Source: a virus. From it: a stretch of 62,195 bases of DNA. Under the pieces are notes generated by a model. It saw only the letters and a program-made list of their open reading frames with translations. It did not search any database and was not told the origin of the DNA. Where the stretch lies: IMG/VR virus record IMGVR_UViG_3300042539_001868, positions 1-62,195 of that record; one strand, written 5' to 3'. Position numbers and translations under genes: made by a program. Shown one piece after another: positions 7,434 through 60,859 of this stretch. Each line of letters starts with the position of its first letter. Position 1 is the stretch's first letter.

Positions 7434-7437
7434 AATA

Positions 7438-7445: not shown

Positions 7446-7469
7446 CAAAACTATTTTTAATTATAAAAA

Positions 7470-7986: not shown

Positions 7987-7993
7987 TATTTAT
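7987..7993 (+). promoter_or_regulatory. Candidate late promoter (TATTTAT) for T9SS-like gene
   Basis: Context AATATTTATAATAAAAG, 13 bases before the ATG at 8007. Confidence 0.6.
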
Positions 7994-8006
7994 AATAAAA
8001 GACATT

Positions 8007-25388: not shown

Positions 25389-25389
25389 T

Positions 25390-28137: not shown

Positions 28138-28162
28138 TGTATTAATATAATAAATTTTTAAT

Positions 28163-30652: not shown

Positions 30653-30658
30653 AAAAAT

Positions 30659-31342: not shown

Positions 31343-31344
31343 AA

Positions 31345-31983: not shown

Positions 31984-31984
31984 T

Positions 31985-35599: not shown

Positions 35600-35600
35600 T

Positions 35601-42343: not shown

Positions 42344-45300
42344 ATGGCATCTCAAAATATTAACCAATATGTTTATCCGAACTTGTTCCCGCAACTTAGT
42401 TTGGAATCATATGATATGTCTTTAACCTCAGATGAAAGAGATTTCAATCAAGAAGTTGTGTTCTCACCGTATCTGATTGCACAAACATATGGTAATAGAT
42501 TGCCTTTTTATTTTGACATTAATAACACAAATTCCGCTCAAAATTTAACACTCAATTATAAAGAGTATAATAGGAATAATATTTTTGTTTCTGAGAATTA
42601 TTACAATCCTGATAATATAGATTTTTCTTGTGTAACATCGGGTCAATCATGCGATATAGGACTCACAGGTATTGATAATGGTTTAGTTCAAAACATGACA
42701 GGAGAAACAATAACATTTACAAATGGATTGTTACCTAATTTACTCAAATTCGATAGAATGAGTTTTGATAGAAGATTAAAACTTTTCCAAGTCACTGGAA
42801 ATACAAGTGACCCAAATATTAGATTTTCAGGATTTTCTGATAGAGTTTTATACGAAGTTGTAAGTAAGTTTAGTCCATTTGAAGGTAGATATCACGAACT
42901 ATACGGAGGTTTTTATCAAGGTTTTTACAAATTATTTGGTTACGATTATGAAATTTTTCCTGAAAGGATGAATAAGGGGTGGACGGTTGAAATGATTTTA
43001 AAACCAAGATTTGTAAACGAATATGAACCAACTGAAGGTGAAACAACCTTAAATAAAATATACCCAAATAATAAAAATACTTTCTTTTATTTTGGAGGTA
43101 GGGCGGAAAATAAATTTTATCATCATGCCGATGGTACTCAAGAATGTTATACAGGATATACAAGAGTTACATCAGATTTAACAACTCTTGAAACTTGCGC
43201 TTGTTGTAATACAAGTGTAACAAACAGTAGATGTATATATGTTTACCCTCCAAGGTCTGTAAATAACGTTCACGACCCACATGTAAATTATGGATGTGAT
43301 TTATGTGGTGGAAATAAAGAAAAACGAATTAGTTGTGGTTGTGATTGTAATAGTACTGCTTGTGAAACTTGTGGTTGGGAGTGTCAGACTCATATTTGTC
43401 CAACACCAAGCCCAACACCAACACCAACACAATCAGTAACTCCAACACCAAGCCCTACTTCAGGATTGTTACCTACAATAACACCAACTCCAAGCCAAAC
43501 GACTGGATTAACACCAACTCCAAGTCCCACTCCCGGATTAACACCAACTCAAACCGTAGTGACTGATATTTTCAGAGGTTTATATTTGAATGACTTTAAT
43601 ACAATTATTGGAAATCCAACTGAGGAACAAAATGTTTATAATTGGGTTCAAAACAATAAAATCAACCATGTTTATTGTTATGATTTAACTCCAATTTTGG
43701 CAACACTTACAGGTCGAAATAATGTTAGAAATTTTAATACGACCATTAGAAACTACGGTGTTTTAAAAATTGCGGGTATCGGTGCTACGGAAAAGACATT
43801 AATTGGTAGTGGTACTACAGGTCAAAACTCAAGAGTTTATTATAATAATGAGTGTACTCAACCTTCACAAAAATACGATATTTTAAATATCGAAAATGAA
43901 TATTGGAATTATAATGGTGCGAGCCCTTATATAAATCCGGGAACAAATGGTCAAATAAGATATGACAACGGTACTAACTTAGATTGGAAATCTCAAAACG
44001 GAAACGTTTATCAATACGGTATTACAAATAATATTGAATCTGATGTATACCAAGGAATAATTCGTGACGGAAAAAATAGCCCTCCAACCCCACCATTCAA
44101 TTTAAAAGTACCTGATACAACAATTGCTCTTGATTTAGTTAATAACTCAAGAAGATTATTAATAGATTGTTATTTGACAACCGCACAATTCACATCATCA
44201 CCTGATGCAGGTTTCAATCATATTTTAACAAGATTAACACTTTTAGGAAACGCGTCATTATCATCGTCCAAAGTCACTGAAATTGTTATATTGTTCAACG
44301 CTAAAGACGCGTTTATGAAATCTTATTTCGTTGCCAATCCTTTAGATTCCGCCTACAATACCGTATTGTCATCATTTAATAGTAATACTTTTTCAGGTAA
44401 AGCGGGTGTGAAGTTAGTTGGTTTTATGATGTTTGGTTATCAACAAGTTAAAGACATTTTAAATGTTCAACAACAAAATTTATTTTTACCACCAACTCCA
44501 ACACCATCTTTAGAAGTATGTGATGTTATTAAACCTGTTTGCACACCTACATGTACTAAATGTGATACTTGTACAACTTGTGATAATTGTACTTCAGGTT
44601 GGACATCAATTGAAAATACTTGTGAAACCGACCCACTGTTAGATGCAAACGGTATTTCATTTAGATTATGTGGTGACCCTAAAAATCCTCAAATCGGGGT
44701 TAGAGCGATAGTTTTTACAGGACAATGTGAAACTACAGGTACTTGTTCAAACACAGGTTCAACATATGTAACTGGTTACACCATTGTTGATTACTGTAGC
44801 CCTCCGATATATCCTTATTGTTTATCGGTTAATCCCGCATATTTGGAAGAGGAACATTGGTTTCAATTAGATGCTGTTTGGGAAAGATATACTTGGTTAG
44901 ATAATTGTGATTTATGGTACAGAGGTGGTTTAGGTAATATAACTGAGAAACTATATTTGGAAGGTTTAGCCAATAATACTAGCTCTTTAATTACTGTACC
45001 ATATACCCAAGAAAATGGGAAAACATCAGAACAAATTGAATTGATTAATTTAAATTCAAAATGGTTTGATGAAAAAAAATATAGAAAAGGAAGACTCAAA
45101 TTTTATATCAATGGTAAGTTATTTTACACTATTGAAGATTTTGAAGAGATTATTCCAAGAGCTTTGAGTACGGATAAAGAAAAACAAGTCGGAGTTCCAT
45201 TTAATGTTTCTTGGGGTGGAGGAACACAAGGTTTGAGAGAGAACTTAACCTTCTCATCGATGACACAACCTTACGGACCATACATACAAGACCCTGAATG

Positions 45301-46291
45301 TTTTCCAATTAATGATTTATCGGGAACAACACTTAATAGATTAAAAACTAATATAATAATAGAACAAAATTTTGCGGGAACTTTTGAAGGCGCTATTTCA
45401 CAATTCAGAATGTATGTTACACCATTAAGTGCTCCTGAAATTAAACATAATTTTGATTTATTAAAAAATACATTTAGGATGTTTAATCCTGATTGTCCAA
45501 ATTGTGAGAACCCTTGTCCTCCAAATGATTTTACATATCAAATTATTGAACCAACCACAACAACCACAACCACTTCACCTATTACAACCACGACTACAAC
45601 AATAATACCGACCACGACCACAACTACAATTTTAACACCATTTGGTTTAGGTCGAGAATTATCGGCGGATAAAAGAGATTTAAATTATCTTATTTCAAAT
45701 AAATTACCAAGACCAAAAATTTCAATTTCTGAAAGATATTGGGATGATGAAAGATGGTGGGGAGACCAAGGTAATACACCACAATGTGTTGGGTACGCAT
45801 GGTCACATTGGATTGATGATGGACCTATAATACATGCCGGTAGAAGACCAAATGTAAATCCGACAACTTTATATAGAGAATCACAAAAACGTGACCAATG
45901 GCCGGGTGAAAACTACAATGGAACATCAGTTAGAGGTGGTGCTAAATACTTACAAGAAATTGGTAAGATTAAATCTTACTTATGGGCGTTTGATGTTCAA
46001 ACTTTAATGAATACTGTTTTAACACAAGGCCCTGTTGTTGTTGGTACTAATTGGTATTATAACATGTTTTTTCCTGATAGGAATGGATTAATAAGAGCGT
46101 CTGGTAGATGGATGGGAGGTCACGCCTACGTTATAAATGGTGTTAACACAAAAACACAATTATTTAGAATCAAAAATAGTTGGGGTAGAAATTGGGGTCA
46201 AAAAGGAAGAGCGTTTATAAGTTTTTCTGATATGACAAGATTGATAAGAGAAGGTGGAGAAATATGTTTAGGAACTGAAAATAAATTTTAA
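42344..46291 (+). CDS. Giant tail-fibre-like protein ending in papain-like cysteine protease
   Basis: 1315 residues. About 1-270: structural N-terminus. 275-350: Cys-rich knot (CDLCGGN, SCGCDC, CETCGWEC). 350-405: Thr/Pro-rich linker. 410-715: alpha/beta domain (TDIFRGLYLNDFNTIIG, NHVYCYDLTPIL, ILNIENEYWN), possibly a glycosidase-type barrel. 720-830: Cys-rich. 830-1062: concanavalin/LamG-like (TFEGAISQFRMYVTPLSAPE). 1069-1099: Thr-rich linker. 1110-1315: C1A papain-like peptidase with oxyanion Gln1142 and Cys1148 (DQGNTPQCVGYAWS), His1260 (GGHAYVINGV) and Asn1278 (IKNSWGRNWGQKG). No signal peptide. A receptor-binding fibre carrying a protease, and maybe a glycosidase, could breach host surface layers. 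Confidence 0.85.
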   Translation: MASQNINQYVYPNLFPQLSLESYDMSLTSDERDFNQEVVFSPYLIAQTYGNRLPFYFDINNTNSAQNLTLNYKEYNRNNIFVSENYYNPDNIDFSCVTSGQSCDIGLTGIDNGLVQNMTGETITFTNGLLPNLLKFDRMSFDRRLKLFQVTGNTSDPNIRFSGFSDRVLYEVVSKFSPFEGRYHELYGGFYQGFYKLFGYDYEIFPERMNKGWTVEMILKPRFVNEYEPTEGETTLNKIYPNNKNTFFYFGGRAENKFYHHADGTQECYTGYTRVTSDLTTLETCACCNTSVTNSRCIYVYPPRSVNNVHDPHVNYGCDLCGGNKEKRISCGCDCNSTACETCGWECQTHICPTPSPTPTPTQSVTPTPSPTSGLLPTITPTPSQTTGLTPTPSPTPGLTPTQTVVTDIFRGLYLNDFNTIIGNPTEEQNVYNWVQNNKINHVYCYDLTPILATLTGRNNVRNFNTTIRNYGVLKIAGIGATEKTLIGSGTTGQNSRVYYNNECTQPSQKYDILNIENEYWNYNGASPYINPGTNGQIRYDNGTNLDWKSQNGNVYQYGITNNIESDVYQGIIRDGKNSPPTPPFNLKVPDTTIALDLVNNSRRLLIDCYLTTAQFTSSPDAGFNHILTRLTLLGNASLSSSKVTEIVILFNAKDAFMKSYFVANPLDSAYNTVLSSFNSNTFSGKAGVKLVGFMMFGYQQVKDILNVQQQNLFLPPTPTPSLEVCDVIKPVCTPTCTKCDTCTTCDNCTSGWTSIENTCETDPLLDANGISFRLCGDPKNPQIGVRAIVFTGQCETTGTCSNTGSTYVTGYTIVDYCSPPIYPYCLSVNPAYLEEEHWFQLDAVWERYTWLDNCDLWYRGGLGNITEKLYLEGLANNTSSLITVPYTQENGKTSEQIELINLNSKWFDEKKYRKGRLKFYINGKLFYTIEDFEEIIPRALSTDKEKQVGVPFNVSWGGGTQGLRENLTFSSMTQPYGPYIQDPECFPINDLSGTTLNRLKTNIIIEQNFAGTFEGAISQFRMYVTPLSAPEIKHNFDLLKNTFRMFNPDCPNCENPCPPNDFTYQIIEPTTTTTTTSPITTTTTTIIPTTTTTTILTPFGLGRELSADKRDLNYLISNKLPRPKISISERYWDDERWWGDQGNTPQCVGYAWSHWIDDGPIIHAGRRPNVNPTTLYRESQKRDQWPGENYNGTSVRGGAKYLQEIGKIKSYLWAFDVQTLMNTVLTQGPVVVGTNWYYNMFFPDRNGLIRASGRWMGGHAYVINGVNTKTQLFRIKNSWGRNWGQKGRAFISFSDMTRLIREGGEICLGTENKF

Positions 46292-46829: not shown

Positions 46830-46836
46830 TATTTAT
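46830..46836 (+). promoter_or_regulatory. Candidate late promoter (TATTTAT) for fibre gene at 46842
   Basis: Context CTATTTATTGTTG, five bases before the ATG at 46842, in the 61-base gap between fibre genes. Confidence 0.5.
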
Positions 46837-46841
46837 TGTTG

Positions 46842-49800
46842 ATGCAATTAATAACGATTACTGGCGCAACAGGTGTCGGACCTTATAACATATATGTTTG
46901 TGACATCACACTAACCACATGCGTTCAAGTTGCAAGTTCAACCCCAATACCCCCAAGTTACAGTTTTTACTTACCTAATGTATTTGTTGGTGTTAATCAA
47001 GTCATCGTAAAGTTATTAGATTTAAGTGATGGGTGTGAATATTTCAACATCTATTATTGTAACTTTCCAAGTAATACTCCTACAATTACACCAACAGTTA
47101 CTCCAACAATGGATGTTAATTGTAATTGTTTAATTTTCAACAATACATCTTCATCAATACAAAATATTAGTTACACACAGTGTGACGGTAATGTTTTCTA
47201 TGGAACAATCGCAGGTCTTACAACATTATACGTCTGTGGTAAATTACCATCAACGGATGACCCAAGTGTAACAATATCTATTACAAAACCTTGTGTAGAT
47301 GGTTCTTGTCCTCCACCAACACCGACAATTACAACAACTCCAACTGTTACACCTACAAATACATTTACTAACACTACAACACCTACAATAACTCCAACGG
47401 TTTCAATACCATCATTAAATTTATTTTTCCAAGAATGTTGTGACCCAACCAAAACTTTTATAGTTACAGGAATTCCTGGTTATTTAGTATTTCCAATCGG
47501 AAGTGTTCACTATATTCAAACACCAAGTTATTCGGCCTGTTCAGAGGTGATAAACCCAACTTTTGTAAGTGCGGTTTATCCTTACTCATCATCATTATTT
47601 CACTCAGATTGTATTTCTTGTGTGGCAACACATTTATGTCCTTCACCAACACCAACTGTTACCCCAACAACCACCCCAACCCCTGTAACTCCAACAGTTA
47701 CACCTACAATTACAACTACCCCTGTAACTCCAACAGTAACCCCAACTAACACGGTAACACCAACTATTACTGTAACACAAACACGACCAAAAGTAATTTA
47801 TTTAGTTAAACAATGTTGTCCATCAACACCACCTCCTACGTCAACACCAACAGTTACACCTACTAGAAACTCAACAATATACAAAGTTAGAAAATGTTGT
47901 CCAAACGCAATTTATCGAGTGAAGAGATGTTGTCCTTCAACACCACCTCCTACACCAACTCCAACCGTAACACCAACAAGAAACTCAACAATTTATCGAG
48001 TAAAGAAATGTTGTTCTGAGCCAGCTCCTACACCAACCGTAACCGCAACTAACACTCCTACAAGAACTCCAACCAGTACCCTTGTTACCGCAACTCCAAC
48101 TATCACTCCGACAAATACTGTTACACCTACCGTAACACCAACGAATAATTTTACAATAATGACGTTGAGGTCGTGTTGTTTATCACCAGCACCTACCCCG
48201 TCCCCAACAACTACAAACACTCCAACTATAACACCAACAAATACCGTCACTCCAACATCACCGTTGAAAAATGTTTTCTTCCGTGATTGTTGTGATGAAA
48301 CAAATTTATTTTTATTACAAGGAGTTCCTCCTTTTTATTCGACATCAAGTGGTGATACCTACATTGTAGGTAGTTCGGGATTCAATGGTTGTGCAACTGT
48401 AATTCCTCCAACGTCTGTATTAAATGTTTATACGTATACATCATTATCAGCCTCTACGGATTGTAACACTTGTATTGAAACTCAGCCTTGTCCTACACCG
48501 ACTGTGACTCCAACAACAACAGCCACTCCAACAACAACTCCAACTGTTACACCAACTGTGACAATTACAATAACTAACACTCCTACAGTTACACCGACTA
48601 ATACCGTAACACCTACTATAACTGTAACTCCTACTAATTGGACTGTAAGAGAAGCCATTCCTTGTTGTTTATGTAATGGTTTACCTATTCAGTATGTTAG
48701 CGCTCCGATTACTTTATCAGGGGGTATTGTGTTTTTAGGTAGTGATGGTCAGTGTTATCAATTAGGTGACCCTATCAATACATCACCCACAATTACTTAT
48801 GTAAACGGTGGATATGGATTTAGTTGTGAGGCATGTTTCAATGATTGTTTGGGAACTGGTACAACACATCCTTGTCCTACTTCTACTGTAACACCTACTG
48901 TTACTCCTACAATCACACCGACTCCAACTAAAAACTTCACAATAATGACTTTAAGGTCTTGTTGTTTATCTCCAATACCAAGTCCAACAACAACCCCTAC
49001 AATCACGCCAACTATCACAACAACTCAAGTAACACAAACTCCGACACCTACCAATACATCAACACCTGTCACTCAAACTCCGACTCCAACTAACACGTCT
49101 ACACCTGTAACTCAAACTCCAACCCCTACTGTTACTGTAACACCTACTGACAACTTTACAGTTATGACTTTGAGAAGTTGTTGTTTAACTCCTTTACCAA
49201 GTCCAACACCAACAAATACTGTTACTCCTACAATTACTGTAACACCAACAAATTGGTTAGTTAGAGAAGCAATTCCTTGTTGTATTTGTAACGGTCTTCC
49301 TATTCAATATGTTAACGCACCGACAACATTGGCGATTGGTTTAGTTTTCTTAGGTAGTGATGGTCAATGTTATCAACTAGGTAATCCTGTTTATCAAATA
49401 CCTACAATAACTTATGTGAATGGTGGATATGGTTTCAGTTGTGACGCTTGTATATCTGATTGTATTGGAATGGGTATGCCTCATCCTTGTCCTACTTCTA
49501 CCATAACACCAACCCCAACTAATACTCCTACAATATCTGTAACACCTACAATTACTCCGACTAATACCCCAACAATTACACCAACTCCAACTAAAAACTT
49601 TACAATAATGACTTTAAGAAGTTGTTGTTTATTCCCTATTCCAAGTCCTACACCAACAGTTACTCCAACTCAAGTAACTCAAACACCAACTCCGACTAAT
49701 ACCGTAACCCCAAGTATTACTCCAACTATAACTACAACTCCGGTAACACAAACTCCAACACCGACTAACACCGTTACTCCAACAATCACACCTACACCAA

Positions 49801-50366
49801 CTAAAAACTTTACAATAATGACTTTAAGAAGTTGTTGTTTGTTCCCTATTCCAACTCCTACTCCTACTCCATCAATAACCCCTACCATTACAACAAGCCC
49901 TGTAACTCCTACAGTCACTCCGACAAATACTTCTACACCTGTTACTCAAACACCTACGCCTTCAGTAACCTCAACCCCTGTAACTCAAACACCTACTCAA
50001 ACAGTTACTCCAACTCCTACAATTAACTTTACTATAATGACTTTAAGAAGTTGTTGTTTGAATCCTATTCCTACACCAACTGTCACTCCGACAATTACTC
50101 CAAGTTCAGTGACTCCAACTCCAACAATAACGCCAACAATTACTCCGACAATAAACTTTACAATTATGACATTACAATCTTGTTGTTTAGTTCCCGCTCC
50201 AACACCAACGAATACAGTAACCCCTACTATAACCGTAAGTCAGTCTGTAACTCCAACACCATCGGTTACACAAACACCTACCCCATCACAATTGGTGTAT
50301 AAACAGTTTCAAGATTTAAGTTTCTTTGAATTTATGGACAACGTTCCTTACAACTTCCAAAATTAA
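46842..50366 (+). CDS. Cys-rich, Thr/Pro-rich fibre protein with repeated CC modules
   Basis: 1174 residues from ATG 46842; an in-frame TTG at 46836 is rejected as start because it overlaps the promoter motif. A first beta module (ITGATGVGPYNIYVCDITLT, 1-72) matches the stand-alone proteins at 59477 and 60862. Then come Cys-rich domains joined by long stalks of TPT, TVT, TNT and TIT units: two of type CCDPTKTF..., two of type AIPCC-CNGLPIQYV with SDGQCYQLG, and seven copies of a peptide NFTIMTLRSCCL-x-P-x-P. About eleven CC pairs could cross-link or bind metal. Its mucin-like composition fits an exposed stalk. It ends YKQFQDLSFFEFMDNVPYN. Confidence 0.82.
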   Translation: MQLITITGATGVGPYNIYVCDITLTTCVQVASSTPIPPSYSFYLPNVFVGVNQVIVKLLDLSDGCEYFNIYYCNFPSNTPTITPTVTPTMDVNCNCLIFNNTSSSIQNISYTQCDGNVFYGTIAGLTTLYVCGKLPSTDDPSVTISITKPCVDGSCPPPTPTITTTPTVTPTNTFTNTTTPTITPTVSIPSLNLFFQECCDPTKTFIVTGIPGYLVFPIGSVHYIQTPSYSACSEVINPTFVSAVYPYSSSLFHSDCISCVATHLCPSPTPTVTPTTTPTPVTPTVTPTITTTPVTPTVTPTNTVTPTITVTQTRPKVIYLVKQCCPSTPPPTSTPTVTPTRNSTIYKVRKCCPNAIYRVKRCCPSTPPPTPTPTVTPTRNSTIYRVKKCCSEPAPTPTVTATNTPTRTPTSTLVTATPTITPTNTVTPTVTPTNNFTIMTLRSCCLSPAPTPSPTTTNTPTITPTNTVTPTSPLKNVFFRDCCDETNLFLLQGVPPFYSTSSGDTYIVGSSGFNGCATVIPPTSVLNVYTYTSLSASTDCNTCIETQPCPTPTVTPTTTATPTTTPTVTPTVTITITNTPTVTPTNTVTPTITVTPTNWTVREAIPCCLCNGLPIQYVSAPITLSGGIVFLGSDGQCYQLGDPINTSPTITYVNGGYGFSCEACFNDCLGTGTTHPCPTSTVTPTVTPTITPTPTKNFTIMTLRSCCLSPIPSPTTTPTITPTITTTQVTQTPTPTNTSTPVTQTPTPTNTSTPVTQTPTPTVTVTPTDNFTVMTLRSCCLTPLPSPTPTNTVTPTITVTPTNWLVREAIPCCICNGLPIQYVNAPTTLAIGLVFLGSDGQCYQLGNPVYQIPTITYVNGGYGFSCDACISDCIGMGMPHPCPTSTITPTPTNTPTISVTPTITPTNTPTITPTPTKNFTIMTLRSCCLFPIPSPTPTVTPTQVTQTPTPTNTVTPSITPTITTTPVTQTPTPTNTVTPTITPTPTKNFTIMTLRSCCLFPIPTPTPTPSITPTITTSPVTPTVTPTNTSTPVTQTPTPSVTSTPVTQTPTQTVTPTPTINFTIMTLRSCCLNPIPTPTVTPTITPSSVTPTPTITPTITPTINFTIMTLQSCCLVPAPTPTNTVTPTITVSQSVTPTPSVTQTPTPSQLVYKQFQDLSFFEFMDNVPYNFQN
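48146..50200 (+). repeat. Seven dispersed repeats of NFTIMTLRSCCL with TPT stalks
   Basis: The peptide [N/D]FT[IV]MTL[RQ]SCCL-x-P-x-P recurs seven times inside the gene at 46842, separated by Thr/Pro stalks of varying length. At DNA level the repeats stay close (acaataatgactttaaga and variants), a likely substrate for recombination. Confidence 0.85.
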
Positions 50367-50429: not shown

Positions 50430-53123
50430 ATGGCTTGTAATAACCAATATATTGTAGAAGATTGTTGTAACTCATCCAACAGTTTTAGAGTGGGCGACAT
50501 TTGTATTGCCGGATTAAATGATGGGGATATTTTTTATACTGAATGTTCAGGATTAACTACAGGTTCAACAAGTTTTACTTTTAGTGGATGTGTTATAGTT
50601 AATAGTTTAGCCTCAGTTTTGGCCAATGCCGCGGACACATTCAGTGCGTTAACCTCGTATACGGCGTGTACTGATTGTCAAACTGCGATAAGTGGTACTC
50701 CTTGTCCAACCCCAACACAAACGGTTACTCCAACTCCAACAACTACAAATACAAGTGGTTTAATATATCTAACCGCTCAAATGTCATTACCCGCTAACTT
50801 AACGGTTGGTATGGTAGTAACAGACTCGAGTGGAAATTGTTGGGAAATTATTGCAACAACAGGTACTACACCAACAATTACTTGGGGTAATCAAATTTTC
50901 CCTGTTGGTGGATGCGCGTCTTGTTTAACGGTAAACCCTTGTCCTACATTAACTCCAACCGTAACACCTACTAATACTCCTACTAATACAGTTACACCTA
51001 CAGTAACACCAACATCATTAGGTTGTCAGGCTTACAATATTCAAGTTAATACAGGAATCAGTGGTTGTACATTTACTTATACAGATTGTAGTGGGGCGAC
51101 ACAAACTGTAACAATTACAAGCGGAATGTCAAATACGGTTTGTGCTTTATTACCACCAACAACAAGTTGTGGAGCATCAGCATACACTATAACAAACATT
51201 GGTAATTGTTGTCAATCTTATCAAATACAAGTAGGTTCAGGAGTAAGCGGTTGTACGTTTAGTTATGTAGATTGTAGTGGAGTTACACAAAATGTTACAA
51301 TCACAAGTGGTAATACAAATATACTTTGTTCATTAACAACACCAACAACAAGTTGTGGTGCATCTGCGTACACAATGACAAACCAAGGATTCTGTTGTCA
51401 AACATATAATATTAATGTTAATTCAAATGTTACAGGATGTACTTTCAGTTATATCAATTGTAGCGGATTTAACCAAACTGTTACAGTATTAAGCGGTTTA
51501 CCACTATCTGTATGTTCTATTATAACACCAACCACAAGTTGTCCGTCATCGGCATATACTATGACAATGTTAGGTAGTTGTTGCTCATATTACAATTTAT
51601 CTGTTGTTGATAGTTCATGTACATTCAATTACATAGATTGTAGCGGAAATAGTCAATCAGTAGTTGTAACAAGTACTGGTTCAACTAATGTTTGTTCATT
51701 GGTCACACCTACAACAAGTTGTAATCCAACAGGATATACAATAACAAGTGCGTCAACATGTAATCCTTGTATTACTTATACTTTAACTAATAATAATTTA
51801 TCACCTTATACGTTTAATTACACTGATTGTAGTGGAGTTACTCAATCGATAACTCTTTCTGGTACAGGAGGAAATGGTGTCATTTGTACCATATCACCAC
51901 CACCTGTTATAAGTGGTGTGACAGTTGTAGCTTCAGGTAATTGTAATCCTTCGACTTGTTATTATGTATCTGTACAAGCGGGCGCAACATACGAGTGTTA
52001 TATTGATTATGATGACCCTATTTCAGGATTCACCACTATTGTAATACCTTCCGCAACTACTGTTAATGTTTGTTCAACAAGTTTACCGGTCGTTTCGGCA
52101 ATATCGGCGGTTTGTTCACCAAGCGATGTAGTGATTATAGCGGGAAGTGCCTGTACTTCTAATGTTAATTCTTTAGGTTATACGTGGGATTGTCCTACAG
52201 TACAATGTAAATGTTGGGATATATACATCGAAGCTCCGACAAATTGTACCGTACCTTATGTTGATTGTGATGGAATAATTCAGTTTTACGCACTCAGTGG
52301 TGGTACAACAGGAAACACAGTTTGTTCTCCTTATCAACCTAATTTAACAAGTTGTGGTGTTACCTATACCGCAACAACTAGTGGAGATTGTGCCGTAGCT
52401 ATTAGTGGACTTTACGAATGTGTACCTTGTACTACAGAGTGTCTTACATTAGGATATGATGAACTTTCAGGTACAATTCAATATTATGATTTGACCGCAA
52501 ATACCTCAACCGTTATTGTAACTTCACTTATTGTTGATGACATTGCCAGTACAAGTAGTTATATTTGGGGTTTCGCAGGTACAAACATATACGAATATCC
52601 GTGGGATAGTTGTCCGCTTTCATTCAGTGCTGCTAGTAGAACTATTACTATAACAGGTTTTACAGGTTCTGTATTAGGTTCAACATCAATTGGAGTTAAC
52701 AACAATCAATTAATATGTAGCGATGGTGGTTCAAACAATATTTATGAATTAGATATAACAACAACAACCGCAATCCAAACTTTAATTTTATCGGCGCCTG
52801 TTGGTAGAGAGTTTGTTAACGATATTTCATATTCGGCAACCGATAAATTATTAACAATTACAAGTGGGGCTAGCGGTTATTATATAACTCAATTTGATTA
52901 TAATACCGCGGTTCAAGAAGTTGATGTTCTTTGGTCGGCAGGTACAATACCATATTCGTTTATTTCGGAGTCTACTAATTTATATGTTGTTGACAACTTA
53001 GGTGATATTTATCAAATCCAAACTACAACACCATATACACAAACTTTTGTACAAACACCTTCATCTCCGTTTAAGTATACGGCACAATACTCAAGGATAT
53101 GTTTCCTTAATAACTTAACATGA
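50430..53123 (+). CDS. Cys-rich fibre protein with DCSG repeats and a beta-propeller-like end
   Basis: 897 residues. It starts with a CC domain (EDCCNSSNSFRVGDICIAGL) and a short Thr/Pro stalk. A strand domain follows (SLPANLTVGMVVTDSSGNC then WEIIATTG), also found in the next gene. About 200-500 hold five or six 60-70-residue repeats with GCTF-x-Y-x-DCSG-x-x-Q-x-V, a V-C-S/A-L turn and PTTSC-x-x-SAYT. From about 660 to the end lies a propeller-like domain (ECLTLGYDELSGTIQYYDLT, YSATDKLLTITSGASGYYI) matching two copies in the gene at 53139. It ends TGA immediately followed by TAA, in frame with the next gene. Confidence 0.8.
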   Translation: MACNNQYIVEDCCNSSNSFRVGDICIAGLNDGDIFYTECSGLTTGSTSFTFSGCVIVNSLASVLANAADTFSALTSYTACTDCQTAISGTPCPTPTQTVTPTPTTTNTSGLIYLTAQMSLPANLTVGMVVTDSSGNCWEIIATTGTTPTITWGNQIFPVGGCASCLTVNPCPTLTPTVTPTNTPTNTVTPTVTPTSLGCQAYNIQVNTGISGCTFTYTDCSGATQTVTITSGMSNTVCALLPPTTSCGASAYTITNIGNCCQSYQIQVGSGVSGCTFSYVDCSGVTQNVTITSGNTNILCSLTTPTTSCGASAYTMTNQGFCCQTYNINVNSNVTGCTFSYINCSGFNQTVTVLSGLPLSVCSIITPTTSCPSSAYTMTMLGSCCSYYNLSVVDSSCTFNYIDCSGNSQSVVVTSTGSTNVCSLVTPTTSCNPTGYTITSASTCNPCITYTLTNNNLSPYTFNYTDCSGVTQSITLSGTGGNGVICTISPPPVISGVTVVASGNCNPSTCYYVSVQAGATYECYIDYDDPISGFTTIVIPSATTVNVCSTSLPVVSAISAVCSPSDVVIIAGSACTSNVNSLGYTWDCPTVQCKCWDIYIEAPTNCTVPYVDCDGIIQFYALSGGTTGNTVCSPYQPNLTSCGVTYTATTSGDCAVAISGLYECVPCTTECLTLGYDELSGTIQYYDLTANTSTVIVTSLIVDDIASTSSYIWGFAGTNIYEYPWDSCPLSFSAASRTITITGFTGSVLGSTSIGVNNNQLICSDGGSNNIYELDITTTTAIQTLILSAPVGREFVNDISYSATDKLLTITSGASGYYITQFDYNTAVQEVDVLWSAGTIPYSFISESTNLYVVDNLGDIYQIQTTTPYTQTFVQTPSSPFKYTAQYSRICFLNNLT
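51030..51960 (+). repeat. Tandem 60-70-residue DCSG repeats
   Basis: At least five diverged tandem copies share Y-x-DCSG-x-x-Q-x-V and PTTSC-x-x-SAYT. Divergence is moderate (YTDCSGATQ, YVDCSGVTQ, YINCSGFNQ, YIDCSGNSQ, YTDCSGVTQ), and a sixth, weaker copy (YVDCDGIIQ) lies at about 52260. Confidence 0.82.
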
Positions 53124-53138: not shown

Positions 53139-54878
53139 ATGGTAGATTTAGATAATTGTGATGTAATTTATATATCGGGAAACGATATATATGGTTACGT
53201 ATATTCCTCAAATACGTCAACTTTGTTAAACGCATATTTTTCAGGGTTAACACCATCATTGATGGATGACATTGCTCATACCTCAACAAAATTTTGGCAA
53301 ATAAAAACAGGTGGAACAATTGATGAGTGGGATATCACATTATCTCCATTTGGGGCGACTTATAATAGAACAATCACAATACCGGTACCATACAACATTT
53401 ATGCGGCTCTATTTGCAATAGATAATACAACATTAATTTCGTATGATTCAAATAGTTTACAAATTGTTGAGTTAGATATCACAGGTTTAGTTGCAACAGT
53501 TACACCAAAATTTTCAGCTCCTTTAGGTAGGTCTTTTGCAATTCAAGACATAACCTACACAACAACGGGAAAATTAATATGTCCAACATTTTTAGGTGGT
53601 CAATATTATATTTCTCAGTTTGATTATGTAACTGGTTTATTAGAAGTTGACGTACCAATAACACCGACCATAAGTGGTCCGATGAATTTCTTTGTTGATA
53701 GTGGAAATTTTTACGTGATTAACTTTTCAGGTGCGGTATATAACATTGGTTTATCTTCACCTTACCCAATTACTTTCACACAAAACACGGGATACCCAAC
53801 CAAGGGAGCGTCTCAAATTGCAAGTTGTGTAGATGTAGTTTTTTCTCCGCCACCTACACCAACAATAACACCTACTAATACCATAACACCAACTCCAACT
53901 GTGACTCCCGGTTTATATTATGCCGAAGGAAATATTTTATTACCCGTAGGTTTACCACCCGGAACTGTTGTTGTAGATACTAATGGTAATTGTTGGGAGA
54001 TTATCGTTGAATCGGGAACAACAACCAACTTAACTTGGAATGGTGAAATATATCCAAGTGGTTGTACAGACTGTTTAGCCGTACATCCTTGTACTACCCC
54101 AACACTTACACCTACAAATACCGTAACTCCAACACCAACAAGTGAACCTTTATGTGTTTCTAGTGGTGCGTGTGAACCATTTTTATGGGCTGGCTCAACC
54201 CCATATTTGTATGATTTTACGGCAAATACTACAACTAATTTATCACCTTATGTCCCATCTGGTTTTACTTCAGGAGAACCTATTGGAGTTTCTGAAAATT
54301 ATTTATTTACTTGGTCTGAAGGTTCCCAAGAATTATATCAATATCAAATAACATATTGTCCATTTTTGTTTTCAACAGTTTGTACATATAATTTAAGTGG
54401 ATATAGTTATAATTTATTAATGGCGACTATCAACGACAATACAGTATTGTTGGGTGGTGGTAATTATATTGACCAAATAGATTTAAATATCACCGCATGT
54501 ACCGCATCTGCAACAACAATATTTAATCCGGTTTCAACTTTCCCTGGTAGAATTGCAGACGCTGAGATGTTATACACCTCAACAGGTAAATTAATTTGTA
54601 TAACTGAAACATTTACAGGAAGTAGTTATTGGATTACTCAATACTCATATCCATCAGGTACTGTTGAAGTTGATATTGATATTACCGCAATTTGTAGTGC
54701 TAGTACACCTACCACAATGTTTGTACATAATTCTTTATTTTATCTTGGTATGTTGAACGGAGATATTTTCAATATCCAACTTACAAGTCCTTATACACAA
54801 ACTTATGTTCAAAGTTCAGGACAATTTACAATTAATTCAGGTCAATCTGCGACTTGTGCAAACGTGAATTTTACTTAA
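53139..54878 (+). CDS. Fibre protein with two beta-propeller-like domains
   Basis: 579 residues. Residues 1-245 and 335-579 are two copies of the domain that ends the previous protein: compare GREFVNDISYSATDKLLTIT with GRSFAIQDITYTTTGKLICP and GRIADAEMLYTSTGKLICIT, and the endings YTQTFVQTP, YPITFTQNTG, YTQTYVQSSG. Between them is a Thr/Pro stalk and the domain LPPGTVVVDTNGNCWEIIVE seen in the gene upstream. Repeated strand-turn-strand blades suggest a ligand- or glycan-binding propeller. It starts 15 bases after the TGA-TAA of the previous gene, in the same frame. Confidence 0.78.
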   Translation: MVDLDNCDVIYISGNDIYGYVYSSNTSTLLNAYFSGLTPSLMDDIAHTSTKFWQIKTGGTIDEWDITLSPFGATYNRTITIPVPYNIYAALFAIDNTTLISYDSNSLQIVELDITGLVATVTPKFSAPLGRSFAIQDITYTTTGKLICPTFLGGQYYISQFDYVTGLLEVDVPITPTISGPMNFFVDSGNFYVINFSGAVYNIGLSSPYPITFTQNTGYPTKGASQIASCVDVVFSPPPTPTITPTNTITPTPTVTPGLYYAEGNILLPVGLPPGTVVVDTNGNCWEIIVESGTTTNLTWNGEIYPSGCTDCLAVHPCTTPTLTPTNTVTPTPTSEPLCVSSGACEPFLWAGSTPYLYDFTANTTTNLSPYVPSGFTSGEPIGVSENYLFTWSEGSQELYQYQITYCPFLFSTVCTYNLSGYSYNLLMATINDNTVLLGGGNYIDQIDLNITACTASATTIFNPVSTFPGRIADAEMLYTSTGKLICITETFTGSSYWITQYSYPSGTVEVDIDITAICSASTPTTMFVHNSLFYLGMLNGDIFNIQLTSPYTQTYVQSSGQFTINSGQSATCANVNFT

Positions 54879-54882: not shown

Positions 54883-54889
54883 TATTTAT
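54883..54889 (+). promoter_or_regulatory. Candidate late promoter (TATTTAT) for glycosylation cassette
   Basis: Context TTCTATTTATTAATAG, 39 bases before the ATG at 54929, in the gap after the propeller gene. Confidence 0.48.
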
Positions 54890-54928: not shown

Positions 54929-56173
54929 ATGAAAATTTTTATACAAATAGCCTCTTTCAGAGACCCACAACTTTCTTTAACTATTAAAAGTATGTTGGAA
55001 AATGCCAAGAAACCTAAAAACTTGGTTATTGGTATATGTAACCAATATAACAAAGATGATGAATTTAATATTGATGAATTCAGAAATGACAAAAGATTTA
55101 AAATTATAGACGTTTTGGATGTTGAATCCAAAGGAGTTTGTTGGGCTAGAAATCAAGTACAACAATTATACAAAGGAGAAGACTATACTCTTCAAATTGA
55201 TTCTCATATGAGGTTTGAAAAAGATTGGGATGATACTTTGATTAAGATGGTAAAACAACTTCAAGAAAAAGGATTTGAAAAACCTTTATTAACAGGTTAT
55301 GTATCATCATTCAATCCTGATAATGACCCCGCGGAAAGAGTTAAAGAACCTTGGAGAATGGCCTTTGATAGATTCATTCCTGAAGGTACGGTATTCTTTT
55401 TACCTGAAACAATTCCTAATTGGCAAAACTTAACTGAACCTATTCCCGCAAGATTTTATTCCGCCCATTTTGCATTCACTTTAGGTAAATTTAGTGAAGA
55501 GGTTCAACATGACCCTGAATTTTATTTTCATGGTGAGGAGATGTCAATTGCGGTTAGAGCCTATACACATGGGTATGATTTATTCCACCCACATAAAGTT
55601 GTTATTTGGCATGAATATACAAGAAAAGGAAGAATAAAACAATGGGATGTTGATAGAGATTGGGTAAATAAAAATAATTCATCACATAAAAAAAATAGAA
55701 AATTATTTGAAATGGATGGTGAAGTTAATGATATTAATTTTGGTAAGTACGGTTTTGGAACTGAAAGAACTTTACGTGATTATGAAATATATTCCGGTAT
55801 TCGTTTCCAAAAAAGAGCAGTACAACAATATACTTTAGATAAACAATATCCTCCAAATCCAACAATTTACAATTCTGAAGAAGAATGGGAAAATAGTTTT
55901 GCAAGTATATTCAAACATTGTATTGATATTAATTTCTCACAAGTACCTGAACAAGATTATGAGTATTGGGTGGTTGCTTTCCACAATGAAAAAGACGAAA
56001 CCATTTTTAGAAAAGATGCCGATAAAAATGAAATTGCTAATATGATGAGAGACCCTGATGGTTATTGTAAAGTATGGAGAGATTTTCAAACAACACATAA
56101 ACCAAAATATTGGGTTGTATGGCCTTATAGCACATCTAAAGGATGGTGTAATCGTTTAACAGGGAATTTGTAA
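54929..56173 (+). CDS. GT60-type polypeptide GlcNAc-transferase-like glycosyltransferase
   Basis: 414 residues. KIFIQIASFRDPQLSLTIKS, GVCWARNQVQQLYKGEDYTL, then QIDSHMRFEKDWDDTLIKM are hallmarks of the Pfam GlcNAc family (CAZy GT60), whose studied eukaryotic members transfer GlcNAc from UDP-GlcNAc to Thr or hydroxyproline in proteins. DSH is the metal-binding DxH. ARFYSAHFAFTLGKFSEEV and FYFHGEEMSIAVRAYTHGYD also match the family. A C-terminal extension (about 310-414) may bind an acceptor. Encoded between Thr/Pro-rich fibre genes, it is a strong candidate to O-glycosylate those stalks. It heads a four-gene cassette with gaps of one to four bases. Confidence 0.8.
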   Translation: MKIFIQIASFRDPQLSLTIKSMLENAKKPKNLVIGICNQYNKDDEFNIDEFRNDKRFKIIDVLDVESKGVCWARNQVQQLYKGEDYTLQIDSHMRFEKDWDDTLIKMVKQLQEKGFEKPLLTGYVSSFNPDNDPAERVKEPWRMAFDRFIPEGTVFFLPETIPNWQNLTEPIPARFYSAHFAFTLGKFSEEVQHDPEFYFHGEEMSIAVRAYTHGYDLFHPHKVVIWHEYTRKGRIKQWDVDRDWVNKNNSSHKKNRKLFEMDGEVNDINFGKYGFGTERTLRDYEIYSGIRFQKRAVQQYTLDKQYPPNPTIYNSEEEWENSFASIFKHCIDINFSQVPEQDYEYWVVAFHNEKDETIFRKDADKNEIANMMRDPDGYCKVWRDFQTTHKPKYWVVWPYSTSKGWCNRLTGNL

Positions 56174-56174
56174 T

Positions 56175-57110
56175 ATGAGAAAATTAGTTATACACCAACC
56201 TACAAATCATCAAAGTAGAAGATATAGGTATTATAATTATTTTTGGGATTTATTATGCGATGAATTATCTAAAAGACATGAAGTAATTACAAATAGATAT
56301 TCTAAAAACATTCATTTTGAAAGACAAACTGTTAGTCTTTTAGGTCATGACAACACAACGACAGACATATTAATGATGGAGTGTGAAATGATAATTCAAG
56401 ATATTGATACATTAGAAATTTATGTATTATCAGTATCCGATGATTTCTCACACGCTTCATTAGGATTGCAAGATAACCCAAATTTAAAAAAAGTTTTTAT
56501 ATCTCAATTTGATTCCCAAAGAGTTTATTCACACTTATCTAACAAGGATAATTTTTCAAAATACTCTCCTTGGATTTATTTCCCATCTAATATTTTCGAT
56601 ATTGAAAAGTATTATAATTTAAGAAAAGAAAAAACTTTAATTGATAAGTTTTATTTCAGAGGAACATCATTAGAAGATAGAAAAATTATAAATCATTTTG
56701 ATAGAACATATTTTGAAGGTGGTTTACCTATAGGTGGATTTGATAACTATGCAAGTGATTTAATTAATTATAAAGTTGCCTTATCAATTGCTGGTAGAGG
56801 TGAGTTTTGTTATAGAGATGTTGAAAACATGGGGATGGGAATACCTATGATTAGATTTGTATATAAAAATAGTATGTATCCAAGTTTAATACCTAACTAT
56901 CATTACATTGCGGTAAACAGACCAACTGACTTAGATTGGGATAGAATGGGTAACGAAGAACATTCTAAAATGATAACTAATAGATTTTTAGAAGTTAAAG
57001 ATGATATAAACTTTTTGGAATTTATATCCAATAACGCTAGAAACTATTATAATGATTATCTATCAACTCATAACAATGTGAGACACACAATTAAACTATT
57101 AGATTTATAA
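56175..57110 (+). CDS. Putative glycosyltransferase (exostosin/GT90-like pattern)
   Basis: 311 residues. N-terminal part QPTNHQSRRYRYYNYFWDLL..., with DILMMECEMIIQDIDTLEIY. The C-terminal half has FYFRGTSLEDRKIINHF and INYKVALSIAGRGEFCYRDV then ENMGMGIPMIRF, which resembles the GT-B donor region of exostosin- or GT90-type enzymes (acidic-Met-Gly turn before a strand). It follows the GT60 gene with a one-base gap, so a second sugar on the same acceptor is a reasonable guess. Confidence 0.65.
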   Translation: MRKLVIHQPTNHQSRRYRYYNYFWDLLCDELSKRHEVITNRYSKNIHFERQTVSLLGHDNTTTDILMMECEMIIQDIDTLEIYVLSVSDDFSHASLGLQDNPNLKKVFISQFDSQRVYSHLSNKDNFSKYSPWIYFPSNIFDIEKYYNLRKEKTLIDKFYFRGTSLEDRKIINHFDRTYFEGGLPIGGFDNYASDLINYKVALSIAGRGEFCYRDVENMGMGIPMIRFVYKNSMYPSLIPNYHYIAVNRPTDLDWDRMGNEEHSKMITNRFLEVKDDINFLEFISNNARNYYNDYLSTHNNVRHTIKLLDL

Positions 57111-57114
57111 AATA

Positions 57115-57747
57115 ATGAATTTTAAAGAAAGAATAACAAAAGAAAGTAATTTAGATGTAAACGATAGTTTGTCGGCTTATATGGGTCATGCGGCACAACA
57201 AAATCATAACGTATATGAAGTTTTTTATAACTTTTTAAATGATGTAAGACCAAAACGTATTTTAGAAATTGGAACTGCTTTAGGGGGGTTTACAAAATTT
57301 TTGAAGTTGGTAAGTGACGAACTTAATTTAGATATTAAAATTTTAAGTCTTGATATTCACTACAATCCTTGGTACGTAGAAATGATTGATTCAGGTATTG
57401 ACATAAGAGTTGAAAATGTTTTTAATTCTGACTATACAGAGGTTTACGACTATGTAAAAAATTTCATGCAATCCGAAGGTACGACCTTAGTTCTTTGTGA
57501 TGGTGGAGATAAAGTAAGAGAATTCAATCTTTTATCAAAACACATCAAAGTAAATGATTTTATCATGGCTCATGATTATGCTGAAAATAGTGAGGTTTTT
57601 AAACAAACCGTAGATAAAAAAATTTGGAATTGGCATGAAATATCTGATAGTGATATAATACATTCTTGTAATGAAAACAATGTAAAAATTTATCAAAAAG
57701 AAAATTTTGAAAACGTGGCATGGACATGTAGGAGGAAAGAACTATGA
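57115..57747 (+). CDS. Class I SAM-dependent methyltransferase-like protein
   Basis: 210 residues. RPKRILEIGTALGGFTKFLK is motif I, DIKILSLDIHYNPWYVEMID the strand-2 acidic region, and TTLVLCDGGDKVREFNLLSK followed by NDFIMAHDYAEN resembles CmcI/TylF-like hydroxylase and methyltransferase proteins, with the metal-type DGGDK and HDY motifs. It would modify a sugar or small molecule, perhaps the end of the chain made by the cassette. Its end overlaps the next start by four bases. Confidence 0.8.
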   Translation: MNFKERITKESNLDVNDSLSAYMGHAAQQNHNVYEVFYNFLNDVRPKRILEIGTALGGFTKFLKLVSDELNLDIKILSLDIHYNPWYVEMIDSGIDIRVENVFNSDYTEVYDYVKNFMQSEGTTLVLCDGGDKVREFNLLSKHIKVNDFIMAHDYAENSEVFKQTVDKKIWNWHEISDSDIIHSCNENNVKIYQKENFENVAWTCRRKEL

Positions 57748-59420
57748 GTAAAGTAACATTAGTAACAGGTTTATGGGACATAGGTAGAGGTAATCTTAAT
57801 GAAGGTTGGTCTCGGTCTTATAGTCATTATTTAGAAAAATTCAAACAGTTATTATCTACTGATTTGAATTTAATAATTTTTGGAGACACCGAACTTCAAC
57901 AATTTGTTAGTCAACATAGAAGTCATCATAATACGCAGTTTAATCTTCGTGATTTAGATTGGTTTAAAAATAATGACTATTATCAATTAATACAAAATGT
58001 TAGAACTAATCCAAATTGGTACAATCAAACAGGATGGTTAACTGAATCAACTCAAGCAAAACTTGAGATGTACAATCCATTGGTGATGTCAAAAATGTTC
58101 TTGTTACATGATGCCAAAATCATGGATAGATTCAATTCAGATTATTTGTTTTGGATTGATGCTGGTATAACAAACACAGTTCATCCTGGCTATTTTACGC
58201 ATGATAAAGTAATAGACAAACTACCGAACATTATTAGTAAGTTCACATTTGTTTCTTTCCCATACGAAGCTAACACAGAAATTCACGGGTTTGATTTTAA
58301 AAAGATTTGTGAATATGCTGACGATAAAATTACAAAAGTGTCAAGAGGTGGTTTCTTTGGAGGTCCTAAAAGTACAATAACCGATGTTAATAGTATCTAC
58401 TACCATCTGATGATTGATACCTTATCTAAAGGTTATATGGGAACTGAAGAAAGTCTTTTCAGTATTATGACTTATAAGAACACTGATTTAATTGACTACT
58501 CAGAAATAAAAGATAATGGTTTTATTAATCATTTTTTTGAAGAAGTTAAAAACGGAACTACTAAGTTAAAAAACGAATCTAAAACACCTAATGTAAGTAG
58601 ACCTGCCGGAGCAAGTAAAGTTGGGTTATATGTAATTGGTTTTAACAGTCCAAATCAGTTTCAGACTTTGATTGATTCAATGTTAGAATACGATAAGAAC
58701 TTTATTGATAAACCAAGAAAAATATTATTAGATAATTCAACAGATTTATCAACAACTCCATTATATTCAGAGATTTGCGAAAAATACGGATTTGAACACA
58801 TTAAAAAAGATAATTTAGGTATTTGTGGAGGAAGACAATGGATTGCAGAACATTTCAACCAATCCAATTTAGACTACATGTATTTCTTTGAAGACGACAT
58901 GTTTTTCTACCCTAAAAGAGGTGAAGTTTGTAAAAACGGATTTAATAGATTTGTTGATGGGCTATACGATAAATCTCTTAACATCATTCAAAGAGAAAAT
59001 TTAGACTTTTTAAAATTAAATTTTACAGAATTTTATGGTGACAATTCAACTCAATGGAGTTGGTACAACGTACCTCAACAAGTCAGAGAAACAATTTGGC
59101 CTAACAATTCGAAACTTCCTGTTCAAGGATTAGACCCGAACGCTCCGAGAACAAAGTTTGAAGAAATAAAAGTACATATGGGGTTACCTTATTCAACAGG
59201 GGAGGTTTATTATTGTAATTGGCCACAAGTAGTATCAAAGGATGGAAGTCAAAAAATGTTTTTAGAAACAACTTGGGCAAGACCTTTCGAACAAACATGG
59301 ATGAGTCATATGTATCAAGAAACTGTTAAAGGAAAAATTAAATCAGGTATTCTATTATTAACACCAACAGAACACAACCGATTTGACCATTATTCTAAAG
59401 AATTAAGAAAAGAGAGTTAA
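57744..59420 (+). CDS. Two-domain glycosyltransferase: HtrL/YibB-like plus GT2-like
   Basis: 558 residues. Residues 1-280 match the HtrL/WlaTC (YibB) family: VTLVTGLWDIGRGNLNEGWS, NPLVMSKMFLLHDAKIMDRF, YLFWIDAGITNTVHPGYF, GGFFGGPKSTI and MGTEESLFSIM. Residues 295-558 form a second GT-A domain: KVGLYVIGFNSPNQFQTLID, NLGICGGRQWIAEHF and YMYFFEDDMFFYPKRGE with the EDD metal site. The fusion may add two sugars in succession. The ATG lies in the preceding gene's end; an AGGAGG stands eight bases before it but may be chance, being inside codons. Confidence 0.82.
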   Translation: MSKVTLVTGLWDIGRGNLNEGWSRSYSHYLEKFKQLLSTDLNLIIFGDTELQQFVSQHRSHHNTQFNLRDLDWFKNNDYYQLIQNVRTNPNWYNQTGWLTESTQAKLEMYNPLVMSKMFLLHDAKIMDRFNSDYLFWIDAGITNTVHPGYFTHDKVIDKLPNIISKFTFVSFPYEANTEIHGFDFKKICEYADDKITKVSRGGFFGGPKSTITDVNSIYYHLMIDTLSKGYMGTEESLFSIMTYKNTDLIDYSEIKDNGFINHFFEEVKNGTTKLKNESKTPNVSRPAGASKVGLYVIGFNSPNQFQTLIDSMLEYDKNFIDKPRKILLDNSTDLSTTPLYSEICEKYGFEHIKKDNLGICGGRQWIAEHFNQSNLDYMYFFEDDMFFYPKRGEVCKNGFNRFVDGLYDKSLNIIQRENLDFLKLNFTEFYGDNSTQWSWYNVPQQVRETIWPNNSKLPVQGLDPNAPRTKFEEIKVHMGLPYSTGEVYYCNWPQVVSKDGSQKMFLETTWARPFEQTWMSHMYQETVKGKIKSGILLLTPTEHNRFDHYSKELRKES

Positions 59421-59695: not shown

Positions 59696-60859
59696 ATGTC
59701 TTGTCCAACACAATATTGTATTAATAATACTGGTTTAGGTTATGATGATAACTATACAAGTGGCGGTACATATAATAGTAATCCATACTATGTAGGTTCA
59801 TCAAGTGGTTATGTTATATATTTTTCCATATCATCTAATTCTTGGTGTTTATCAAACGCTTTAGGTGGTTCTTGTCTTTTATCAGGAAAATCACCATGTA
59901 CAAGTGTTTGTCCTGATTTATGTGATGAAATATTTTTTAGTGGTGTTTGTCCTACTCCAACACCAAGTCCTACAACAAATTGTGACACCTTTAACTTCGA
60001 TGCAATTTTTGATTGTTTATATGAGCCAACACCAACACCAACTCCAACATCATCATTAACACCAACTCCAACACCTACACCAACAGTAACAAATTTTTGT
60101 AGTATTGTTGGTATCGGAGCATCGATAACAGGAGTAACACCAACACCAACTTCAACATTAACACCAACACCAACCAAAACACCATCAGTTACAAGACCAT
60201 TTAATTTTTCAGGTGATGTTACATTTACTCCAACTGACACAACAATAAAATGCCCATCAAGTAAACAATTTCAAGATTGTTACAATGGAGAAATGTATTA
60301 TACCACAAATCCAATTGTAAATCCAAGCAGTGGTGAAACCACACAATTTATGATTTTCAAAGCCAACGTAAATGGAGTTTCAAAGTGTATCTCATATGTC
60401 GGCATTAATAATCAAGTCATAGGAAAAGATAACATTACTTTAGTTCAAGGACCGATAGGTTTATCTAACTTAGGTGAATGTGCTCTTTGCGTACCTGACC
60501 CAATACCAAGTCCAACACCTTCAATAACGCCTACTAATACCGTGACACCGACCATAACCCCATCGGCAACATTACCTCCAAATCAATATTACGTTTTGAA
60601 AAAATGTTTTAATGAAATACAATATATTATCCAAACTATTGCTCCTATAACCACAGTACCTGGTAATGTAATTGGTAATCAAATAACTAAAGAGTGTTGG
60701 GAATTTATGTACGTTTCTTCAAGTTACCCAACTTTACCTTTGGGTACAGTTGGGACATATATTGATGGTAACTATTTCCCGAATACAAGTGTTACGGTTT
60801 TTACTAATACGGAGTCACTTTCTGCATGTGAAAATTGTGCCTCTAACCCATCTGAATAA
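59696..60859 (+). CDS. Cys-rich, Thr/Pro-rich fibre protein
   Basis: 387 residues. The first 85 form a Cys-rich domain ([20 protein letters not shown] ... [18 protein letters not shown]). Stalks of TPTPT follow with short Cys inserts ([30 protein letters not shown]). A middle domain (about 185-275) has [19 protein letters not shown] and [14 protein letters not shown], then another stalk and a final domain ([29 protein letters not shown]) related to the GNCWEII domain in genes at 50430 and 53139. It probably forms part of the exposed fibre network. Start follows the TAG of the previous gene directly. Confidence 0.76.

Follow-up and report, generated by a model that had tools for sequence, protein, structure and literature searches.

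Organization of the cassette and its flanking genes

At positions 54929 to 59420 of the window, by which is meant the whole 62,195-base virus record analyzed here (IMG/VR record IMGVR_UViG_3300042539_001868, which carries a T4-type gp23 capsid gene at positions 2452 to 4299), four open reading frames (ORFs) are arranged in tandem on the plus strand, with intervals of 1 nucleotide (nt) and 4 nt and a final overlap of 4 nt, bearing out the original prediction, made from the letters alone, of four coupled genes on one strand. These encode a GT60-like polypeptide N-acetylhexosamine (HexNAc) transferase which is proposed to be the initiating enzyme (positions 54929 to 56173; 414 amino acids [aa]), a protein without a convincing family match (positions 56175 to 57110; 311 aa), an S-adenosylmethionine (SAM)-dependent methyltransferase (positions 57115 to 57747; 210 aa), and a two-domain glycosyltransferase (GT) composed of an HtrL/YibB domain and a second GT-A domain (positions 57744 to 59420; 558 aa), referred to here as HtrL/GT. 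The first and last genes represent conserved bookends, while the two interior genes belong to the variable part of the cassette.

ORFs containing the tripeptide Thr-Pro-Thr (TPT) flank the cassette on both sides, three upstream and one downstream, all on the plus strand and recognized by composition. The Thr/Pro-rich repeat protein encoded at positions 46836 to 50366 (1,176 aa), which is the proposed main acceptor, contains 308 Thr residues and 93 TPT, 18 PTVT, and 23 PTIT motifs. The Thr- and Cys-rich repeat protein encoded at positions 50430 to 53123 harbors 12 TPT motifs, two TPT segments, and one 573-residue run free of Lys and Arg, the protein encoded immediately 5′ of the GT60-like gene (positions 53139 to 54878) harbors 10 motifs and two segments, and that encoded 3′ of the cassette (positions 59696 to 60859) harbors 15 motifs and three segments. 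Poor coverage of these proteins in tryptic proteomics is to be expected because they contain so few Lys and Arg residues (33, 7, 9, and 11, in the order given). Since the repeats employ all four Thr codons, TPT represents a protein-level repeat; a DNA microsatellite was rejected on the basis of this codon usage and of the near absence of the reversed pattern from the same records.

A GT60-like enzyme as the proposed initiator

The GT60-like assignment of the first gene product was confirmed by its match to PF11397 (E = 3.4e-70; score of 237.7 bits, cut-off of 21), and it also matched the glycosyltransferase family phrog_24687 (E = 7e-166). A search of solved structures with its AlphaFold model, of which the mean predicted local distance difference test (pLDDT) score was 90.3, returned polypeptide N-acetylgalactosamine (GalNAc) transferases as all 19 of its top matches (best E = 1.9e-11), followed by other GT-A enzymes, namely, TarS, GlfT2, and chondroitin polymerase; sequence identity in the fold matches was low (approximately 12%), with query TM-scores of 0.45 to 0.50. 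Sequence searches of the PDB with the GT60 and HtrL alignments found no relatives. Throughout an alignment of 37 sequences, comprising the window protein and 36 phage homologs which are 69 to 82% identical to it, D91-S92-H93 and long blocks were invariant; a DXH motif is found in GT27 enzymes. By family and fold, the protein looks like a polypeptide HexNAc-transferase, and its predicted action on protein is well supported by both the profile match and the structural model.

GT60 enzymes are polypeptide N-acetylglucosamine (GlcNAc) transferases, whose Trypanosoma cruzi members initiate mucin-type Thr glycosylation (PMC3769586), as does a Dictyostelium member (PMC3188802), while the GT60 enzyme Gnt1 initiates hydroxyproline glycosylation of Skp1 (PMC6939170). 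Both acceptor classes had been entertained in the original prediction, and hydroxyproline in the Thr/Pro-rich neighbors would be in keeping with the Gnt1 precedent and with the Pro content of these proteins. However, 15 GT60-bearing records of 104 to 322 kb yielded no prolyl-hydroxylase-type oxygenase (PF13640), these records being incomplete, other oxygenase families not having been searched, and a host enzyme being possible. Because PF13640 is absent from these large carriers, Thr is considered the likelier acceptor, and hydroxyproline was rejected as a highly improbable one. None of the papers searched unites GT60, glycosyltransferase, and phage.

The HtrL/GT partner and the interior genes

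The HtrL/GT product matched PF09612 across residues 3 to 252 (E = 1.6e-15; 57.9 bits against a cut-off of 24.1). As its score against the NCBIfam YibB equivalog model (63.8) fell below the cut-off of 264.9, it is regarded as a relative of YibB and not as YibB itself. The structural model (pLDDT of 88) and a fold search identified a second GT-A domain in the C-terminal half, the fold matches being the LH3 glycosyltransferase, the K4 chondroitin polymerase, and LARGE1; the anticipated two-domain architecture was thereby upheld. The C terminus additionally produced a weak match, at chance level (E = 0.016), to phrog_842, a beta-glucosyl-HMC-alpha-glucosyltransferase (HMC, hydroxymethylcytosine), and this constitutes the sole hint that the cassette might glycosylate phage DNA bases, a function common among phage glycosyltransferases. 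Such a role is very unlikely given the polypeptide-transferase fold of the initiating enzyme and the identity of the cassette neighbors, which are TPT proteins and not base-modification genes; moreover, DNA protection would not predict the exchange of interior genes described below.

A scan of viral contigs yielded 134 relatives, of which 80 were kept. An HtrL/GT homolog accompanied the GT60 gene in 76 loci (three of these 76 matches being fragmentary or weak), nearly always on its 3′ side, including in the cultured phages XacN1 and RAS14, and just upstream of it in loci L061 and L079. The conserved unit across relatives is thus the GT60 and HtrL/GT pair and not the set of four genes, the intervening genes being different in most relatives. 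The same enzyme pair was observed in a bacterial setting in a Gemmatimonadetes metagenome-assembled genome (MAG), where a PF11397 gene adjoins an HtrL/GT homolog near a catalase gene (L415, positions 5926 to 8957). In a Halieaceae MAG (L420, positions 2967 to 7221), an HtrL/GT homolog accompanies two tandem PF11397 genes, one of which is fused to a PqqD domain, and because PqqD is a peptide-recognition element of ribosomally synthesized and posttranslationally modified peptide (RiPP) systems, this fusion hints at a peptide acceptor for the bacterial relatives.

With regard to the interior genes of the window, the SAM enzyme foreseen in the original prediction was verified as a methyltransferase through its match to PF04989 (RMNT_CmcI; E = 1.2e-5), and as kin of rhamnosyl O-methyltransferase and CmcI it is probably a sugar O-methyltransferase; homologs were detected in 20 loci. 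The product of the preceding gene, with homologs in 18 loci, had been labeled a second glycosyltransferase, a label which was not confirmed, as neither the single sequence nor an 11-member alignment of homologs produced a convincing Pfam or PDB match.

Exchange of gene sets between near-identical bookends

The interval between the GT60 and HtrL/GT genes comprised 0 to 9 genes in the relatives, and the 255 interior ORFs sorted into 91 families, the two interior ORFs of the window representing one such set. Pfam assignments among these ORFs included methyltransferases, GT10, GT25, GT2, GT34, GT7, and PLOD-type transferases, as well as carbamoyltransferase, UDP-GlcNAc 2-epimerase, nucleotidyltransferase, and DegT aminotransferase. 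GT60 proteins which are 98 to 99% identical may share no interior family at all, as was evident for L026, L029, L044, and L066. In four pairs checked among these loci, DNA homology (92 to 95%) covered approximately 60 to 75 nt before the GT60 gene, the gene itself, and 5 to 10 nt after it, where it ended, returning at the HtrL domain (88 to 93%). The upstream stalk gene, i.e., the adjoining TPT gene, likewise differed between pairs with near-identical GT60 genes. Interior gene sets are, therefore, exchanged between near-identical bookends, which is a direct sequence result, and because of this exchange a changeable glycan is the most economical reading of the cassette.

Not one of the 255 interior ORFs, nor any of the four window genes, encodes a membrane-type hydrophobic segment, and the interior consequently lacks a flippase, a polymerase, and a lipid-carrier transferase. 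A lipid-linked surface polysaccharide was rejected on these grounds, and the stepwise cytoplasmic glycosylation of a soluble acceptor fits such a cassette better. The same observation bears on the possibility that the cassette alters host surface glycans, leading to superinfection exclusion or receptor change in a manner comparable to serotype conversion by temperate phages. The transferases, methyltransferases, carbamoyltransferase, DegT, and epimerase of the interior are also typical of O-antigen loci, the arrangement of bookends around a variable interior is O-antigen-like, and a second sugar cluster is present at 23 to 37 kb in the window. Nevertheless, with the membrane segments missing, the fold of the initiating enzyme closest to polypeptide transferases, and no indication of a temperate phage found, modification of the host surface is considered improbable.

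Association of GT60 with TPT proteins

The joint occurrence of the enzyme and the repeats in related phages, the absence of which had been named beforehand as grounds for refutation, was assessed in the kept viral loci, with a TPT-rich ORF defined as one containing at least four TPT motifs and lying in the retrieved flanking sequence (up to 10 kb). Such an ORF was present in 76 of the 80 loci (two of the 76 being short minus-strand ORFs), and the TPT DNA pattern was present in all 19 GT60-positive whole records tested, leaving the reading unrefuted and the enzyme strongly linked to TPT-rich proteins in related phages. When redundancy was reduced to 38 GT60s with more than 5% divergence, a TPT-rich ORF was immediately upstream in 24 cassettes. 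In a less biased test, records were selected by the TPT pattern or, as a composition-matched control, by the same pattern reversed: PF11397 was detected in 14 of 32 and 1 of 18 records, respectively (Fisher P = 0.004), and regrouping by TPT content, the single positive control record holding 11 TPT matches, gave a P value of 0.00025. In five long records, the GT60 gene was nearer to a TPT cluster than expected from random placement (combined P = 0.002).

The nearest cultured homologs are those of the jumbo phages XacN1 (48% identity) and the Stenotrophomonas phages CM1 and RAS14 (45%). In XacN1, the GT60-like gene (ORF334) is followed by a carbamoyltransferase gene, two further genes, and the HtrL homolog (ORF330), and TPT-rich proteins are encoded by ORF350, with 29 TPT motifs, and by ORF325, which is very large and has 10. 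Unlike the window arrangement, ORF350 is situated approximately 12 kb from the GT gene, where it adjoins an ORF annotated as a structural protein. According to the authors who described it, XacN1 possesses at least two glycoproteins (PMC5852040). A phylogenetic tree placed the phage cassettes in one well supported group, which includes three Bacteroidota records, apart from XacN1 and RAS14; XacN1 is a separate case holding both GT60 and TPT proteins.

Several observations weigh against the TPT proteins as acceptors of the GT60-like enzyme. The records selected by TPT pattern were larger in total than the controls (3.5 versus 1.4 Mb, summed by hand), and adjustment for size by a hand calculation on record lengths reduced the contrast of 14 of 32 versus 1 of 18 to a P value of only approximately 0.006 to 0.045. 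PF11397 was missing from 18 of the 32 TPT-rich records, and the repeats therefore do not need the GT60 enzyme; the dependence is one-way, in that phage GT60 accompanies TPT proteins, yet GT60 is absent from many TPT-rich records. Only 2 of 35 bacterial PF11397 loci possessed a TPT-rich ORF within 6 kb, and the link is for this reason taken to be a property of the phage cassettes and not of the PF11397 family. Most cassettes derive from one phage lineage, and as they form a single group in the tree, lineage explains part of the pattern. In the 31 kb of RAS14 examined, the sole Thr/Pro feature found with the GT60 gene is a short stretch within a single, very large protein, and the GT60-positive record G029 (142 kb) contains a single TPT-pattern match. 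The repeats predicted for the neighboring genes are indeed present; their designation as fibers is a guess, as the TPT proteins have no significant match to a tail fiber family. The XacN1 paper reports that no tail fibers or fiber homologs were found, nor does its text tie the glycoproteins to particular ORFs (PMC5852040). The large downstream genes of relatives were also considered as tail genes and rejected, since DNA polymerase B is encoded on the downstream side of the locus in several relatives; their cassettes are therefore bordered by TPT genes on one side and by the polymerase gene on the other and are not part of a proven tail module.

It may be asked whether the cassette modifies a different virion protein, such as the capsid or another tail protein, the proximity of the stalks to the cassette reflecting only their joint membership in an exchangeable region. 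The scarcity of repeats in RAS14 and G029, the many TPT-rich records lacking PF11397, the divergence of stalk genes between phages with near-identical GT60 genes, and the unassigned XacN1 glycoproteins would all be consistent with this possibility. It is nonetheless regarded as rather unlikely in view of the TPT-rich ORF positioned directly upstream in most nonredundant cassettes, the nearly constant presence of TPT repeats in GT60-positive records, and the resemblance of these repeats to known acceptors of the GT60 enzyme class. The Dictyostelium prespore antigen carries O-GlcNAc on PTVT repeats, a motif found 18 times in the proposed main acceptor. The TPT proteins as the GT60 acceptor remain the best single explanation, in which we place somewhat better than even confidence.

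Proposed mode of action

We propose, as a reasonably probable reading, that the cassette specifies a phage-encoded soluble protein O-glycosylation system which acts in the host cytoplasm on the neighboring TPT proteins. The GT60-like enzyme would add the first sugar, probably an alpha-linked HexNAc drawn from the host UDP-HexNAc pool, to Thr in the TPT/PTVT-type repeats of the adjoining phage proteins. Subsequent extension and capping of the glycan would be a function of the HtrL/GT enzyme and of whichever interior genes are present, including transferases, methyl- and carbamoyltransferases, and epimerases, such that near-identical phages with exchanged interiors may carry different glycans. 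The resulting coat is envisaged to stiffen and protect exposed appendages and to vary their surface. More tentatively, and with confidence falling just short of even, these elements may constitute a modular virion mucin system of large freshwater phages, in which the initiator and extender are conserved, the tailoring genes are swapped as sets, and the TPT proteins of near-identical phages acquire different coats; a phage counterpart to O-antigen switching, with a protein as its scaffold, is suggested with the same reserve.

Comparison with known glycosylation systems

The phage enzyme belongs to the same Pfam family as the GT60 enzymes Gnt2 of Dictyostelium, TcOGNT-2 of T. cruzi, and the Skp1-modifying Gnt1, and it adjoins mucin-like Thr/Pro-rich proteins. 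It differs in lacking a membrane anchor, in possessing an extra C-terminal part, and in being coupled to a second bookend enzyme, and its activity is a predicted one. The GT27 polypeptide GalNAc-transferases provide the closest solved folds, and the phage D-S-H motif is invariant, whereas the low identity and TM-scores and the absence of a sequence-level PDB match set the two apart.

Phage virion glycosylation as such is already known from mycobacteriophages (Freeman 2023, cited in PMC12619734), where virion glycans are borne on the C termini of capsid and tail tube subunits; that source describes neither a bookend/exchange cassette nor TPT stalks. Bacterial O-antigen and capsule loci typically combine conserved flanks with an exchangeable interior of sugar genes. 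The phage cassette shares this layout but is phage-borne, lacks membrane export and polymerase genes, and possesses a polypeptide-transferase-like initiator. The new point is one of architecture, i.e., conserved GT60 and two-domain bookends around an exchangeable interior, much like an O-antigen locus adapted to a soluble protein acceptor. Together with the mucin-type initiator and the neighboring mucin-like repeat proteins, this arrangement suggests that these large freshwater viruses coat parts of their own particles with changeable sugars.

GT60-initiated mucin-type O-glycosylation is described in protists. If the proposed reading is correct, bacterial viruses would possess such a system together with their own mucin-like proteins, the phage version occurring in considerably more than 100 viral contigs and in cultured jumbo phages. 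Phage surface glycans would then diversify as bacterial O-antigens do, which would affect how phages recognize hosts, withstand proteases, and are recognized by immune systems. The cassettes would also be a source of small, soluble glycosylation enzymes acting on simple repeats and would suggest a possible role for glycosyltransferases of large aquatic phages to which none had been assigned.

Putative expression signals and additional features of the window

Of the 57 window genes, 16 have the heptamer TATTTAT in the 50 nt before their start, compared with approximately 1 expected from its frequency; the spacing is 11 to 46 nt, and both strands are represented. The genes starting at 42344, 50430, 54929, 59477, and 61129 are among those so preceded, and the copy at positions 54883 to 54889 (plus strand), 46 nt before the GT60-like start, is a possible promoter element on the basis of this motif count. 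In 11 of 36 relatives, the motif was found approximately 40 to 52 nt before the GT60 gene. The late-type motif of the original prediction is genuinely enriched and is at most a candidate late promoter. A T4-type TATAAATA late promoter was considered and rejected, as TATTTAT is the motif enriched upstream of genes instead; read on the opposite strand, TATTTAT gives ATAAATA, the core of T4 late promoters. Because TATTTAT precedes both, transcription of the GT60 cassette and of the next TPT gene probably begins separately at each, directed by a common signal. In L070 and L071, a terminator-like hairpin, recognized by eye, separates the stalk gene from the GT60 gene.

Further Thr-rich or repetitive proteins were noted. 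A large protein encoded at positions 42344 to 46291 combines TPT and poly-Thr segments with a C-terminal papain-like peptidase domain (PF00112; phrog_16701, E = 1e-52), and a similar peptidase protein is encoded upstream of the cassette in L004. The ORF beginning at position 61129, which runs past the end of the window at 62195, contains many HAEG/HSEG repeats which resemble YadA-type head repeats, with no confirmation from Pfam. A 201,987-base record, G045 (L202), contains 579 TPT-pattern matches and no PF11397 enzyme. Finally, a second cluster of sugar- or surface-type genes is located on the minus strand of the window (positions 23481 to 36988), encoding PhoH, part of a DegT aminotransferase, a hexapeptide acyltransferase, WbqC, BKACE, a xylose-isomerase-like protein, a flavin adenine dinucleotide (FAD) oxidoreductase, an FkbM methyltransferase, and a two-domain GT2 (positions 33353 to 35599), and this cluster could act as a supplier of modified sugars.

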